Under the pieces are notes generated by a model. That model saw only the letters and a program-made list of their open reading frames with translations. It did not search any database and had not been told where the DNA came from. Position numbers and translations under genes: made by a program. From Haloferax elongans ATCC BAA-1513 (GTDB taxonomy: Archaea > Halobacteriota > Halobacteria > Halobacteriales > Haloferacaceae), in the NCBI RefSeq assembly GCF_000336755.1, contig NZ_AOLK01000026.1:15059-58977 (forward strand): a stretch of 43,919 bases of DNA. The letters are read 5' to 3'. Every line of letters starts with the position of its first letter. Position 1 is the first letter of the stretch. This document shows, piece after piece, positions 9,363 through 32,164 of this stretch.

Positions 9363-10102
9363 TCAACTACTCCACAAGAGTTCGTCTGTAACACGGCGAA
9401 GCAGCCGACCGTCGCGAGCAGCGTGCTTCAACCCAACTAGGGTTCGTCTGTAACGACCTCAGACGACGTTATCGACCGACTCGAATCTCTTGCTTCAACC
9501 CAACTAGGGTTCGTCTGTAACGTCGCTGCGGGATACGCTCTCTCGGCAGTCATGCGCTTCAACCCAACTAGGGTTCGTCTGTAACTACTGATACCGGTCG
9601 CGCTCGCTCGCCCCGTGGACGCTTCAACCCAACTAGGGTTCGTCTGTAACTAGAAAGCCACGACAGGACGCAGGAGACGTTTGAGGCTTCAACCCAACTA
9701 GGGTTCGTCTGTAACCACGCTCGCGCCCGCGCAGTTCGACGCGGTCATACGGCTTCAACCCAACTAGGGTTCGTCTGTAACTGCGTCGAACTCACCGAGT
9801 CCAAACACACCGTTGCTTCAACCCAACTAGGGTTCGTCTGTAACCCTCCTCAAGTCGTGGAACGAGTCGGTCAATGAGATTGCTTCAACCCAACTAGGGT
9901 TCGTCTGTAACGATTCGGAACCACCTCCGTCACCCTGCCCGATGGCTTCAACCCAACTAGGGTTCGTCTGTAACGTCTGGATGATACGGGAGAAACCAGA
10001 CGCAGCCAAGCTTCAACCCAACTAGGGTTCGTCTGTAACGACGGTGACCGGGGTCCGACTGTGGACCAGTTCGCTTCAACCCAACTAGGGTTCGTCTGTA
10101 AC
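9363..10102 (-). CRISPR. CRISPR array, 11 intact repeats plus 1 degenerate
   Basis: Eleven identical 30-bp repeats begin at 9425, 9492, 9556, 9621, 9686, 9752, 9815, 9882, 9945, 10010 and 10073. On the plus strand each starts GCTTCAACCC and ends GTTCGTCTGTAAC. A degenerate copy at 9363-9392 keeps the last 12 bp. Spacers are 32-37 bp. In the opposite reading the repeat starts GTTACAGACG and ends GGTTGAAGC, the form known for haloarchaeal type I-B arrays where the last 8 nt become the crRNA 5' tag. Transcription is therefore probably on the minus strand, with the leader right of 10102 and the decayed repeat at the trailing end. No cas gene is in the window. Confidence 0.97.
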
Positions 10103-26380: not shown

Positions 26381-27688
26381 CTACTCTGATTCGAGTGGGT
26401 CGCCATCCACACCGTGACTGGTAAGCTGAAGGTTCGGCAGGCGTCTGTAGCCCGACGTGCTGCCGGCGATGACCGAAAAGCCGAGTGTGCCAACGAGTTG
26501 TGGGACACCGGTGATGCCAGCACTCGCGAGGGCGAACGAGACCAGTACCGAGAGGACGACGACAACCGCCCCTACTGCGGCCTCGCGTAGAAGAACGTCT
26601 CTCAGTCGGCGGCGTCGCACAGACTGTTGTGTCTTGAAGACGGGCAGCACGTCCCGAAGTCGCGTCTGGACGAGGTAGTTCGACAGCACGGCAGCGAACC
26701 CACCGAGTGGGAACCACCATACCCACGAGACACCGAAGACGGGACTGAGTCCAGGGATGAACCCACTCAGTTCGGTGGACTGTTCAGTCCCGTCTGTCGG
26801 CCTCGACGACTGCCCGTCGTCGGTGGTATCGCCATCGTCCGACTCGGGAGCACTGGTGACGGTGTCATCGCTCGTGTTCTCATCGCCTGACTGTTCGGGA
26901 GTGGTGGTGGCAGTCGTAAGGGTACCCTGGGTCCCTGAGTCGTTCGTCGCATCGTCACCAATCGTTCCGCTATCGACACCGTCAGCACCATCGTTGTCGC
27001 TTCCGCCGGTGCTACCGCCAGCACCACCCGTGCCACCTCCGGCAGAACCTCCATCGTCACCGCCACCATCTCCACCATCGCCGCCACCACCAGCTCCGCC
27101 ATCGCCGCCACCACCAGCTCCGCCATCGCCGCCACCACCAGCTCCGCCATCGCCACCGTCCGAACCGCCGCCCGAGCCGCCGCTACCACCCGAGCCACCG
27201 GACCCTCCGCCAGAGTTGGACCCCGATTCAGGAACGGTGGCTTCGACGGTGATTTCGCCGGTGAAATCGCGGTCCTCGGGGATGACAGTGACGCCGAACA
27301 ACACAGACTCGTCTGGACGAAGCTGTATGGGTTCGCCCTCGACGCGCTGGCCGGTGTCCATCCGATGAATCGTTATCCGCTCGCTATCGGTCCTGAGTCG
27401 GACGGTCGTACTGTCGTTGCTGTTCTCGTAGCCAGCGAATCCGACGACAAAGAGGTCGTTCACTTGCGTGTGACTGTTTGGAAGGACCGGAGAGAGATGG
27501 AGTCGGATGCGTCCAGCGTCGTCGTACTCGACGTACTGGTTGCCGTTCTCGGTGTCTGCCGCGGTGAGATACACCCCAGAGTCGGACGCTGGTGCAATCT
27601 CGTCGCCACCCGTGAAGGCACCTGTCGCTAAGACGGTGCCGCTGAGAACTGCGGCGAGAGCGACGAGGGCGACGAGGGTACGGTTCAT
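26381..27688 (-). CDS. SipW-type signal protein with Gly-rich linker and membrane C-terminus
   Basis: 435 residues. The N-terminus (MNRTLVALVALAAVLSGTVLATGAFT) ends in the GAFT motif of SipW-type signals and is followed by a DUF1102-like beta domain (DSGVYLTAADTENGNQYVEYDD...) to about residue 155. Then comes a linker of some 70 residues made almost only of Gly, Ser, Asp and Ala, a Thr/Asp-rich stretch, and three C-terminal helices (VSWVWWFPLGGFAAVLSNY, AVGAVVVVLSVLVSFALA, VPQLVGTLGFSVIAG). It is probably a surface protein held in the membrane at its C-terminus. It faces DUF5305 convergently. Confidence 0.75.
   Translation of the reverse strand: MNRTLVALVALAAVLSGTVLATGAFTGGDEIAPASDSGVYLTAADTENGNQYVEYDDAGRIRLHLSPVLPNSHTQVNDLFVVGFAGYENSNDSTTVRLRTDSERITIHRMDTGQRVEGEPIQLRPDESVLFGVTVIPEDRDFTGEITVEATVPESGSNSGGGSGGSGGSGGSGGGSDGGDGGAGGGGDGGAGGGGDGGAGGGGDGGDGGGDDGGSAGGGTGGAGGSTGGSDNDGADGVDSGTIGDDATNDSGTQGTLTTATTTPEQSGDENTSDDTVTSAPESDDGDTTDDGQSSRPTDGTEQSTELSGFIPGLSPVFGVSWVWWFPLGGFAAVLSNYLVQTRLRDVLPVFKTQQSVRRRRLRDVLLREAAVGAVVVVLSVLVSFALASAGITGVPQLVGTLGFSVIAGSTSGYRRLPNLQLTSHGVDGDPLESE
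27093..27164. repeat. 24-bp tandem repeat in the Gly-rich linker
   Basis: Units of 24 bp start at 27093, 27117 and 27141 (plus strand GCTCCGCCATCGCCGCCACC then ACCA); the third diverges near its end. On the coding strand each adds eight residues of Gly, Asp and Ala. Slippage here would change linker length in frame. Confidence 0.85.
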
Positions 27689-27718: not shown

Positions 27719-28291
27719 TCAGTTGTTCGTCGCTTCCACGACGAACGTCACCGATCCGATATCGTCGAGGCTGCTTCCATCGACGTTGTCGTCCAGGAGG
27801 TCGACGACAATGTCGACTTCGACGACGTCAGCGTTCTGCCCATTGTTTCCGTCGGGACCAAGTTCGATTGCGTTCCCGGACGTCCCGTCGCCGACGATAG
27901 ACGCGTCGTCGACACGAAAGTCGAGAACGTCGCCATTACTCGGGTCGTCACCGACGCCATCAGTGCTACCATCGACGTACAAATTAACCGTGTTACTGCC
28001 GTTGTTGTCGATTTCGAGAGCGTCAGTGAACGTCGTCTTCGCGCGCTCGTTGAGGTTCGTCTCTTCGAACTTGATCACGTCGACGGACTCGCTCGTATCT
28101 GTCCCGATAATCGTCCCCGCACCAACGCCACTTCCCTTGTCGAAACTTACCTGTGCCGACCCGCTGTCACTGGAAACATTGAGATCGACGTTGCGGTCTG
28201 CCTCGATAGAAGTGAACGCACCGGAGCCGAAGACGGCACCCGTTCCAACGCTTGCGGCACCGATACTGAGTAAGAGACTTCTGCGATTCAT
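27719..28291 (-). CDS. DUF1102/SipW-type secreted protein
   Basis: 190 residues. Signal segment MNRRSLLLSIGAASVGTGAV followed by FGSGAFTSIEADR, the motif shared with the other three proteins of this cluster. The mature part is acidic and beta-rich (DVIKFEETNLNERAKTTFTDALEIDNNGSNTVNLYVDG), like haloarchaeal DUF1102 and bacterial TasA/camelysin relatives. It is probably cleaved by the S26B peptidase encoded at 31013-32164 and assembled on the cell surface. It is divergent from the similar gene at 28410, with 118 bp between the two starts. Confidence 0.85.
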   Translation of the reverse strand: MNRRSLLLSIGAASVGTGAVFGSGAFTSIEADRNVDLNVSSDSGSAQVSFDKGSGVGAGTIIGTDTSESVDVIKFEETNLNERAKTTFTDALEIDNNGSNTVNLYVDGSTDGVGDDPSNGDVLDFRVDDASIVGDGTSGNAIELGPDGNNGQNADVVEVDIVVDLLDDNVDGSSLDDIGSVTFVVEATNN

Positions 28292-28409: not shown

Positions 28410-29045
28410 ATGAAGATGAACCGCAGAAGTGTCCTCGGACTCATCGGGACGATTGGTATCGGAACTGGTGCGGCATTCGGCTCTGGCGCATTTAGCACAG
28501 TCGAGGCGACACGCGAAGTCGAAGTCAACGTGGTCGGCGTCGACGACGACGGGAACGAAGACGGCTCGCAGATTGCAGACCGGTTCACGGACGTGTTGGT
28601 TGACGCGTCTTCCGACGAAGTCGCGCTGCGCAGCGCTGACGGAACGCTCGTCACAGACCCCACGACGCTGTTCCCCACGGCGAGCGATACGCTCGATGCG
28701 AACGGAAACGCTGACATCGACGAGAACTACGTGAGTCTCATCGCCAACGACGTGACTGTCGTCTTCGGATACGAAGACGGGAGTACCGACGAGCGTCTGA
28801 TGCCGAACAGCACGTACACCTACCCCACTGGCTTCTTCACGCTGGTGAACAACGACGATGGCAGTGGACAGGCCTTCTCTGTCGAACTCGAATCTGGCGA
28901 CACGTTCCTCACCGAGATTGGCGGAAGCAACCCCTACAGCGAAGACGTCGCCGCCGATACGACGTCCGAACTGAGTGCCAAACTCGAAACTGGCGACACC
29001 GGGACCGAGAGTGAAACGCTGACCATCACGATCAACGAAGCCTAA
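28410..29045 (+). CDS. DUF1102/SipW-type secreted protein
   Basis: 211 residues. Signal MKMNRRSVLGLIGTIGIGTG then AAFGSGAFSTVEATREVEVNV, matching the divergent neighbour almost residue by residue around the cleavage region. The mature part contains the DUF1102 features (DRFTDVLVDASSDEVALRS, then FGYEDGSTDERLMPNSTYTYP and FTLVNNDDGSGQAFSVELES). It is predicted to be a surface or filament component. A Met at codon 3 is an equally good start. Confidence 0.85.
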   Translation: MKMNRRSVLGLIGTIGIGTGAAFGSGAFSTVEATREVEVNVVGVDDDGNEDGSQIADRFTDVLVDASSDEVALRSADGTLVTDPTTLFPTASDTLDANGNADIDENYVSLIANDVTVVFGYEDGSTDERLMPNSTYTYPTGFFTLVNNDDGSGQAFSVELESGDTFLTEIGGSNPYSEDVAADTTSELSAKLETGDTGTESETLTITINEA

Positions 29046-29204: not shown

Positions 29205-29816
29205 ATGCAGAACGTAACGAGAACACGTATTACTGTCAATACTGAAGATACGCGTATGGTGCAGTTGGAGCAGAGAGGCTCTGGTGAGAGACCTGTCTCG
29301 CGCGACGAGGTCTACGGTCTCTTAAGTAACCACCGCCGTCGATACGCCCTCCACGCGATCAAACAAGGAGATGGACCAACTGAACTCTCGAACCTCGCTG
29401 AACAAGTCGCAGCATGGGAAAACGGAAAGTCCGTCCGCGAAGTCACGTCTACCGAACGACATCGCGTGTACACCTCGATGCAGCAGACACACCTTCCGGC
29501 GTTGGAACGTGCAGGTGTCATCACTCACGATAACGGGACCATCACACTGACCGAACAGGCGACAGATTTGGACGTCTATCTGGATGTCGTACCAGGCAAC
29601 TCGATTCCGTGGGCCGAATACTATCTTGGGCTCTCGGCAGTAGCGATTAGCCTCGTCGCTGCCGTCTGGGTTGGCGTGTTCCCCGCCTGGATTCCACAAC
29701 TGGTGTGGGCCGCGGTTATTTCGCTTCTCTTCATGGGCTCTGCGGCGTATCACGTCTACCAGAATCGGCGTATGCAGTTGGGAGAGACCGACAAACCACC
29801 AGAACTTATGCAATGA
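29205..29816 (+). CDS. winged-helix membrane regulator (DUF7344-like)
   Basis: 203 residues from ATG 29205; ATG 29256 (MVQLEQRGSGERPVSRDEVY) is equally plausible, and a TTG lies at 29181. The N-terminal domain SRDEVYGLLSNHRRRYALHAIKQGDGPTELSNLAEQVAAWENG is the DUF7344 winged helix common in haloarchaea. Two C-terminal helices follow (YYLGLSAVAISLVAAVWVGVF and QLVWAAVISLLFMGSAAYHVY). It may regulate the surface-protein cluster from the membrane. Its TGA overlaps the ATG of the first mini-ORF leading to the LamG gene. Confidence 0.8.
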   Translation: MQNVTRTRITVNTEDTRMVQLEQRGSGERPVSRDEVYGLLSNHRRRYALHAIKQGDGPTELSNLAEQVAAWENGKSVREVTSTERHRVYTSMQQTHLPALERAGVITHDNGTITLTEQATDLDVYLDVVPGNSIPWAEYYLGLSAVAISLVAAVWVGVFPAWIPQLVWAAVISLLFMGSAAYHVYQNRRMQLGETDKPPELMQ

Positions 29817-29845
29817 CGAATAGTTCCCCAAGGCCCATAGAATGA
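29813..29845 (+). CDS. 10-codon mini-ORF 1 before the LamG gene
   Basis: MTNSSPRPIE then TGA. Its ATG overlaps the stop of the wHTH gene and its stop overlaps the ATG of mini-ORF 2, both as ATGA. Probably a leader for translational coupling, or simply the product of a 29-bp duplication. Confidence 0.45.
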   Translation: MTNSSPRPIE

Positions 29846-29874
29846 CGAATACACTCCCAGAAATCCAAGAATGA
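29842..29874 (+). CDS. 10-codon mini-ORF 2 before the LamG gene
   Basis: MTNTLPEIQE then TGA. Like mini-ORF 1 it begins ATGACGAAT, is ten codons long, and ends in an ATGA overlap, here with the LamG gene start at 29871. The distance between successive ATGs is 29 bp in both cases. Confidence 0.45.
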   Translation: MTNTLPEIQE

Positions 29875-30968
29875 CGAAAAAGTGGACTCGGCGGGGCGCA
29901 CTCGCGTTACTCGCCTCCGGCGCGGGAATGCTCGCTGTCGATACCGCCGGGTTCACGACGATTAACGCCGACCGAGCAAGCACCCTTAGAACAGAGGCTG
30001 ATTCGAACGCCCTCCTTGGTGTTGGTGACACGCATGTAGAGGGCAGTGACGGCAACAGCGTGACACTCACCACGCTGACGAATCGATTCGACGAGCCACT
30101 CACGTGGTTCCACGTCGACGTGCCACTCGGCGCGCCGATACGCGATGTCGAGACACCGAGGCAACTTGCGCCCGGTGAACAGGGCGACATCGAAGCCACG
30201 CTGTCGTGTTCCCAAGAGACGACGTCTGTCGAACTCACTATCTCTGCAGGTGGCAACGATCAAGAAGTCGAACTTACACGAGACTTCACCATCGTGTGCG
30301 ACGACCCCCAAGTCGCCAGGTGGACGTTCAGCGAGCCCAAGAATACCACGTACCTCGACGACGAATGGGGTTCCCACACTGCGCAACGAAGTCGCTCTAC
30401 GTGGCCGCAGACGTGGCCGAGAAACGCCTTGCCCAAAGATAGGACGTTGCGCTTCAACGGCAATCACGATGTCGTGACGGTCCAAGACGACGACGAGTTA
30501 GACCTGACGTCTGACTTCACACTCTCTATTTGGGTGCGATACTGGGAGAGATCAAGTCACGACCTGGCGAGGTTGTTTAGCAAGTGGAATTCGGTCGGCG
30601 ACGAAAGCTACCAGTTCTTCATCGCCGAGCGACCGTTTAGTAACAGAGACCACGAAATCGTGATCGAGACGACAGAGCGATACGAACTCACTGGCATTTC
30701 AGTTCAGGAGGGCCACTGGCAGCTTCTGACTTGGACACACAGTGACGAAGGAGACCACGTGTACGTCAACGAAGTTGGCTACGACGTCCCGAGTGTCCCC
30801 GATGCACAACCATCTGGGCAACCACTCCGTATCGGAAACGGTCTCGACCACGGAGGGAACCTCGACTATGGCTTTACTGGGCTGTTAGATGACGCCCGTA
30901 TCTACAGTCGAGCACTGACCGCGGAAGAAGTTCGGAATCTCTACCGTCACGGAAACATCGACGGGTGA
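29871..30968 (+). CDS. secreted LamG-domain protein with SipW-like signal
   Basis: 365 residues. Signal MTKKWTRRGALALLASGAGM then DTAGFTTINADR, again the GF(T/S) region shared by the cluster. Residues about 35-145 form a beta-rich DUF1102-like part; from VARWTFSEPKNTTYLDDEWG to the end is a LamG/concanavalin-like domain (LRFNGNHDVVTVQDDDELDL, DFTLSIWVRYWE, GHWQLLTWTHSDEGDHVYVNE, GLLDDARIYSRALTAEEVRNLY). LamG domains bind carbohydrates or proteins at cell surfaces. It is probably exported by the S26B peptidase encoded convergently. Confidence 0.85.
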   Translation: MTKKWTRRGALALLASGAGMLAVDTAGFTTINADRASTLRTEADSNALLGVGDTHVEGSDGNSVTLTTLTNRFDEPLTWFHVDVPLGAPIRDVETPRQLAPGEQGDIEATLSCSQETTSVELTISAGGNDQEVELTRDFTIVCDDPQVARWTFSEPKNTTYLDDEWGSHTAQRSRSTWPQTWPRNALPKDRTLRFNGNHDVVTVQDDDELDLTSDFTLSIWVRYWERSSHDLARLFSKWNSVGDESYQFFIAERPFSNRDHEIVIETTERYELTGISVQEGHWQLLTWTHSDEGDHVYVNEVGYDVPSVPDAQPSGQPLRIGNGLDHGGNLDYGFTGLLDDARIYSRALTAEEVRNLYRHGNIDG

Positions 30969-31012: not shown

Positions 31013-32164
31013 TCATTTGAACAAGCGCTTTAGCCGACGCGTGAGCGGAATATCGCGGCTCGTATCTCGAAGACGCTTCGAGCCGAACCCGAACACTGCA
31101 CCGACCATCGCAGAGACACTCAAGAGTATGAGTACGTTGAATGCAGCGATAGCCACAACCGGATGAATTGAGTGCAATTGTTCGATGATACTCGGCGGGA
31201 GTATCAAGAAGTATCGACGCTCGGTAATCGTGACGACGGTTTGCTTGCGCGGCGGTGGTGCGGTCACGAAGAGCGTCGCTGTCGCCGATTTATCACGTGG
31301 AACGACGAGCCTGTTTTGGCTCATCTCCGCGTCTGGATGGGTCGTCTCGAGGAAGATAAGCATCGTCACGAGCCCGCCGTTCTTCGCGGTGAACCCGTTT
31401 TCGACCTGGTCACCGGGCTGGATATCGTCTGACAGTTCGTCTCCATCGACAGCAACTTGATGCGTCCCGCTCGGTGCCAACATTGCGGCGTTCGCCGGGA
31501 CGAGCACCAAGAATGCTAACCCGAGCGCGACCCACCGACCGTCGATGGCGTCGCTGTCAGTTCGTGACCGCTTTCGGTCTCGGCTCTTCTGTTGTCCATC
31601 GCGTAAATCGTCGATAAATATGAAGAGGAACAGGACGAGTCCGACGGAGATGAACAAGCCGCTGAGCCCCTGTGAGCCGAACGGTGAATCGACACCGAGT
31701 GCAGTCGTCAACGCCGTTTGTGCACCAGACACGGTGTTTCGAACCGTCGCGATGGCAGTCCCCAGCCCCGGGATTCGAATTACGTTGCCGTTTATCTGGA
31801 GGGCTGTCGCGACGATTCTGTCTTCTGTGACCACCGGTTCGTCGCTGCTTTGGTCCCGAAACGGGTTGTTGTCACCTTTCGTGATATAGCCCCGCTCTGT
31901 CTCTTCGACGACTCTGTGTGTCGTCAGCCCACCCCCTTGCAGTTCGATGGCGTCGAAGACGATGACATCTCCCGGTTCGATTTCACCAGAGAACGGTTCA
32001 GGGATAGCGACAAAGGCATCTCCCGTGTGCAGCGTCGGCGACATGCTCCCAGAGGTGACGTACCCCAGAAGGACAGGTTGGCCGAGGAGTTGACCCACCA
32101 CGAGTGAGATGACCACAATCGTGGCTACGACGGTGAAAAAATCCTCTGCGAACTGCCGCAACAT
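31013..32164 (-). CDS. archaeal S26B signal peptidase I (SipW-like)
   Basis: 383 residues. An N-terminal helix (FFTVVATIVVISLVVGQLLG) leads to the catalytic core: SGSMSPTLHTGD with the nucleophile Ser, TTHRVVE with His in place of the bacterial Lys, and YITKGDNNPFRD with the acidic residue. This Ser-His-Asp arrangement is known for archaeal and ER signal peptidases. The C-terminal half adds helices and an extracellular beta part (VDGDELSDDIQPGDQVENGF...) beyond the usual enzyme. It should remove the SipW-type signals of the four neighbouring proteins. Confidence 0.9.
   Translation of the reverse strand: MLRQFAEDFFTVVATIVVISLVVGQLLGQPVLLGYVTSGSMSPTLHTGDAFVAIPEPFSGEIEPGDVIVFDAIELQGGGLTTHRVVEETERGYITKGDNNPFRDQSSDEPVVTEDRIVATALQINGNVIRIPGLGTAIATVRNTVSGAQTALTTALGVDSPFGSQGLSGLFISVGLVLFLFIFIDDLRDGQQKSRDRKRSRTDSDAIDGRWVALGLAFLVLVPANAAMLAPSGTHQVAVDGDELSDDIQPGDQVENGFTAKNGGLVTMLIFLETTHPDAEMSQNRLVVPRDKSATATLFVTAPPPRKQTVVTITERRYFLILPPSIIEQLHSIHPVVAIAAFNVLILLSVSAMVGAVFGFGSKRLRDTSRDIPLTRRLKRLFK

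Follow-up and report, generated by a model that had tools for sequence, protein, structure and literature searches.

In Haloferax elongans ATCC BAA-1513, tandem triplication of a gene junction has probably produced a reinitiation relay, in which two ten-codon mini-ORFs connect a winged-helix (wHTH) gene to the fimbrial gene tafC. Inspection of the window (the whole 43,919-nucleotide stretch of DNA that we analyzed) places ATGA stop/start overlaps at 29813, 29842, and 29871, which link the wHTH gene, mini-ORF 1, mini-ORF 2, and tafC in that order. The wHTH gene and tafC are on the same strand, and the same-strand ATGA overlap that defines -4 nt coupling occurs at all three positions. The wHTH gene stops with the TGA at 29814-29816. 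Mini-ORF 1 (29813..29845, + strand; MTNSSPRPIE*) starts in the overlap with that stop, and mini-ORF 2 (29842..29874, + strand; MTNTLPEIQE*) has an ATGA overlap at each end. Both mini-ORFs begin with ATGACGAAT and end with GAATGA, the ATG-to-ATG spacing along the chain is 29 bp twice, and the distance from the wHTH stop to the tafC start is 54 nt. The three-ATGA chain and these features of the mini-ORFs had been described in the original prediction, and all of the details held when the sequence was reread. A sequencing artefact as the source of the chain was ruled out by three independent assemblies. For a background rate of such links, we sampled approximately 831 kb of the same genome as stretches and used a simple gene caller, which called 759 genes. 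There were 60 gene pairs linked directly by ATGA or GTGA, and this was the only pair linked through two all-ATG mini-ORFs. One other two-step link was found, with GTG starts and a 40-codon frame.

The upstream gene of the relay (29256..29816, + strand) encodes a DUF7344 winged-helix protein (Pfam PF24035, E 5e-26) with a hydrophobic C-terminal segment. Its start at 29256 agrees with the annotation of H. larsenii KU306_RS16410, and longer versions starting at 29205 or 29181 are possible. The downstream gene, tafC (29871..30968, + strand), encodes a 365-aa secreted fimbrial protein (NCBIfam NF052521 TafC, E 2.4e-170) with a C-terminal LamG-like domain (Pfam Laminin_G_3). Upstream of the wHTH gene are tafA, for a fimbrial protein (28410..29045, + strand; NF052520, E 5e-76), tafE, for a fimbrial adapter protein (27719..28291, - strand; NF052522, E 8.9e-65), and a gene for a TafF-like fimbrial protein (26381..27688, - strand; NF052523, E 3e-108). 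TafA, TafC, and TafE exceed the curated NCBIfam cut-offs, the TafF-like protein falls below its own, and a SipW-like archaeal signal peptidase I gene adjoins the cluster (31013..32164, - strand; TIGR02228, E 1.1e-18). The locus is a haloarchaeal fimbrial cluster, with the wHTH gene between tafA and tafC, as shown by the NCBIfam-named TafA, TafC, and TafE neighbors together with the TafF-like protein and the archaeal signal peptidase. A search for Taf in the literature library used here found no paper. The locus is plasmid borne in H. larsenii NCIM 5678 (pHl5678-1) and H. mediterranei (pHME505), and a viral origin was rejected, TafC having no relative in viral contigs. Two other repeats were seen in the window. 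One is a partly perfect 24-nt tandem array of 4.3 copies within the tafF-like gene (27051-27154), and its repeat number may vary, because the gene has 435 codons here versus approximately 402 in H. larsenii. The other, at 9492-9782, is built of some 4.5 copies of a 65-nt unit (70% matches) and could represent plasmid iterons or another kind of repeat.

The nearest locus is that of H. larsenii JCM 13917, at 93% protein identity. Two H. larsenii strains keep both mini-ORFs (MTNRSPRRKE* and MTNTLPEIHG*) with the 29/29 spacing, no indel, and 9 substitutions in the 58 nt. Gene order is unchanged in H. mediterranei pHME505, but mini-ORFs are absent; a single ATGA there holds both the end of the wHTH gene and the start of tafC (...GAGAATGACCGGGAAGTGG), and the sequence of the wHTH/tafC junction is GTTAGAGAATGACCGGGAAGTGG. 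(The H. mediterranei tafC gene runs across the record start of pHME505 [L092 4610-5276 plus L093 1-437] and is absent from its gene table.) A single direct overlap is also present in Halorubrum sp. PV6 and in L037, which have identical junction sequences. In a wHTH protein tree, the two relay loci are sisters and lie beside H. mediterranei, with the direct-overlap locus L037 as the outgroup. The 58-nt mini-ORF chain is thus a derived state, because H. mediterranei and the more distant relatives have a single direct ATGA and the wHTH tree places the relay pair inside them.

The extra 58 nt have a 29-nt period, and this repeat is more than chance. In a period-29 scan, three consecutive copies near 29791-29795 ranked top of 43,832 window positions, with 54/87 pairwise identities. 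Tandem Repeats Finder independently reported 29812-29878, with a period of 29 and 2.3 copies. The repeat comprises three copies rather than two, and each unit corresponds to the wHTH 3' end together with the start of the following frame. Copy 1 (29792..29820, + strand) consists of the final 21 wHTH nucleotides ahead of the ATG plus ATGACGAA. Copy 2 (29821..29849, + strand) is the most diverged, and its likeness to the other copies is weak outside ATGACGAA. Copy 3 (29850..29878, + strand) has CCAGAA in the register and frame of the wHTH tail. When compared with the H. larsenii wHTH tail, copy 3 is identical at 13/21 positions, which is equalled by 16 of the 43,898 window 21-mers, and copy 2 at 11/21, which is reached by 214 of them. 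In frame, the LPEIQE* of mini-ORF 2 parallels the wHTH end of H. mediterranei, PPEVRE*. The 58 nt are therefore most likely two additional copies of the 29-nt junction unit, made by a local triplication of the 21-nt wHTH tail plus ATGACGAA. Because 29 is 2 modulo 3, the copied tail keeps its old reading frame, its stop lands on the next ATGA, and each copy re-creates the -4 overlap. The units now differ from one another, which suggests an old triplication when measured against the divergence of H. larsenii and this species. The original prediction had proposed that a 29-bp duplication, not a multiple of 3, would generate such a chain, and had pointed to the spacer in relatives as a check. The duplication idea is right and now extends to three copies. 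The comparison also bore it out, with the overlaps kept in both H. larsenii strains and one direct ATGA, representing the ancestral junction, in H. mediterranei.

These observations suggest the following course of events. In an ancestor, one ATGA would have contained both the stop of the wHTH gene and the start of tafC. In the common ancestor with H. larsenii, the 29-nt junction segment (the wHTH end plus ATGACGAA) would have been copied two more times. Each new copy, read from its own ATG, would terminate exactly on the TGA in the following ATGA, and two 10-codon mini-ORFs would thereby arise simultaneously. Ribosomes terminating at the wHTH gene could then reinitiate at mini-ORF 1, at mini-ORF 2, and finally at tafC, in three -4 hops rather than one. 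A likely side effect would be TafC output below that of a single junction. What we see directly is the repeat and the chain, which H. larsenii retains and H. mediterranei lacks; that ribosomes travel along the chain, and that TafC output falls as a result, is what we infer from it.

Work in H. volcanii bears on whether the mini-ORFs would be needed. All nine gene pairs tested there were strictly coupled (9/9), and Shine-Dalgarno (SD) motifs were unable to initiate translation de novo (PMC6728339). When stop codons were shifted upstream, a distance of 13-14 nt greatly diminished reinitiation, and at 22-23 nt almost none was left (PMC10666635). Because H. volcanii reinitiation dies at about 22 nt and SD motifs are not functional de novo, tafC should be silent behind an empty gap of 54 nt; most likely, the mini-ORFs pass terminating ribosomes on in three hops. 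If the H. volcanii rules hold, tafC would be reachable from the wHTH gene only via the mini-ORFs. A 30-nt mini-ORF may suffice for coupling, because the last 15 nt of the upstream gene were enough in E. coli (PMC10666635). An SD motif or TATA-like box fitting any of the three ATGs was not found at the junction, where the RNA also folds more weakly than shuffled sequences do (z +2.2). Together, these results suggest neither independent initiation nor a masking hairpin, and we rejected both a start signal of its own for tafC and a hairpin or attenuator RNA at the junction. It is possible that tafC has a leadered promoter or an internal one, and we count this against the relay. Most simply, the mini-ORFs can be read as maintaining coupling despite an insertion that happened by accident. 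The original prediction that they could tune reinitiation on the LamG gene stands as to mechanism, which fits the published Haloferax data (PMC6728339, PMC10666635), but the active tuning part is unproven.

We also considered what, if anything, has kept the mini-ORFs. Compared with H. larsenii, 3 of the 10 residues differ in mini-ORF 1 and 2 of the 10 in mini-ORF 2. The mini-ORF peptides therefore do not appear to be conserved, and because they vary, any constraint or selection would be on the open frame and the ATGA junctions. That the mini-ORFs encode functional 10-residue peptides is extremely improbable; an MTN start is common to both ORFs in both species, but the residues change freely between these sister species and the C-terminal ones come from the wHTH tail. 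We rejected a conserved peptide function. We also give little credence to a regulatory attenuator, in which ribosome loss at every hop would be the reason why the mini-ORFs persist, since it would hold TafC under the level of the wHTH regulator or let TafC respond to translation conditions. Reinitiation efficiency does differ between gene pairs (PMC10666635), and the LamG domain hints that TafC might serve as a minor subunit or at the tip, for which a low dose would be suitable. However, neither a conserved peptide nor RNA structure is seen at the junction. A third alternative is a neutral relic, in which the triplication is real, tafC is translated independently (from its own transcript or an internal start), and chance has left the mini-ORFs intact in two sister species of recent origin. 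In a simulation for the two species, the relay survived in 19% of sets of 9 randomly placed substitutions, and its retention in two species alone is not statistically beyond chance. In addition, the spacer divergence of 15.5% is close to silent-site levels (22.9% at wHTH fourfold sites, versus 12.5% in early tafC). Even so, we consider this explanation unlikely, since strict coupling is the rule among the Haloferax pairs tested (PMC6728339), neither an SD motif nor a TATA-like element was found at tafC, and a direct ATGA overlap is maintained in relatives.

The proposed relay resembles the -4 nt ATGA termination-reinitiation of H. volcanii in genus, in its ATGA junctions, and in not needing an SD motif (PMC6728339, PMC10666635). 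However, coupling in H. volcanii joins two full genes by one junction, whereas here two mini-ORFs lie between the genes and there are three successive junctions. It also resembles the mycobacterial MIRUs, short repeats with a small ORF that couples at -4 nt to the next gene, so that they insert with little harm and expression is uncut by the insertion (review PMC12548453). The overlap of both small-ORF ends with a neighboring stop and start is shared with the Haloferax unit. However, MIRUs are dispersed, seemingly mobile, and bacterial, whereas the Haloferax unit is an archaeal, local tandem copy of a gene junction in one place. Tandem MIRUs between senX3 and regX3 also have lengths of 2 modulo 3. 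We found no dispersal of the Haloferax unit to other start codons, as the pattern occurs once in this genome and once in the H. larsenii genome. Matches to the repeat pattern in other genomes differed in spacing or were simple repeats, and a mobile or dispersed repeat was rejected because no fitting form turned up elsewhere in the genomes searched. In the axe-txe upstream minigene, a mini-ORF likewise aids translation of the next gene in cis (PMC8708949), but that minigene is bacterial, has two codons, lies 15 nt from the next start, and forms no chain. Termination-reinitiation at -4 nt and MIRU mini-ORFs are known parts, and what is new is the archaeal setting, the origin by junction copying, and the clear ancestral state.

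A second case came from a sample of 30 loci of a paralogous wHTH gene in other genera. Direct ATGA overlap with the next gene was present at 16/30. At two loci (L115 and L118), an insertion of 20 nt, which is also 2 modulo 3, creates a mini-ORF of 7 codons that begins and ends in an ATGA overlap, and a third (L117) has the same arrangement but with CTG. Plain gaps of approximately 5-22 nt occurred at 6/30, and 5/30 had no such downstream gene. By their sequences, one-step relays appear to occur separately in another haloarchaeal genus, in a clade with a labile junction, although the low resolution of the wHTH tree makes the number of relay events uncertain. Relay junctions are not always kept, because relatives of L115 and L118 carry the plain gaps, which we count against the relay. 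At another locus (L012, the locus of G007), a 28-nt tandem repeat, GTGAAAAGTGGGTTGTGAGAGAGCCACC, lies directly 3' of the wHTH paralogue stop and contains short GTG frames.

Duplications of 2 modulo 3 length across ATGA junctions might be a recurrent, tolerated haloarchaeal route to multihop mini-ORF relays, a generalization that we offer tentatively and would not yet favor. If it is true, two hops were added here, another genus gained a one-hop relay in a separate event, and such duplications both test in nature how reinitiation works in series and supply new small ORFs. The origin of these short ORFs would be simple, with a junction duplication of the right length yielding coupled mini-ORFs immediately. 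There is also a caution for annotation, in that a 54-nt "intergenic gap" may be translated throughout. H. mediterranei, with one junction, and this species and H. larsenii, with three, form a natural before/after pair, which would allow ribosome survival per reinitiation hop to be measured in an archaeon.
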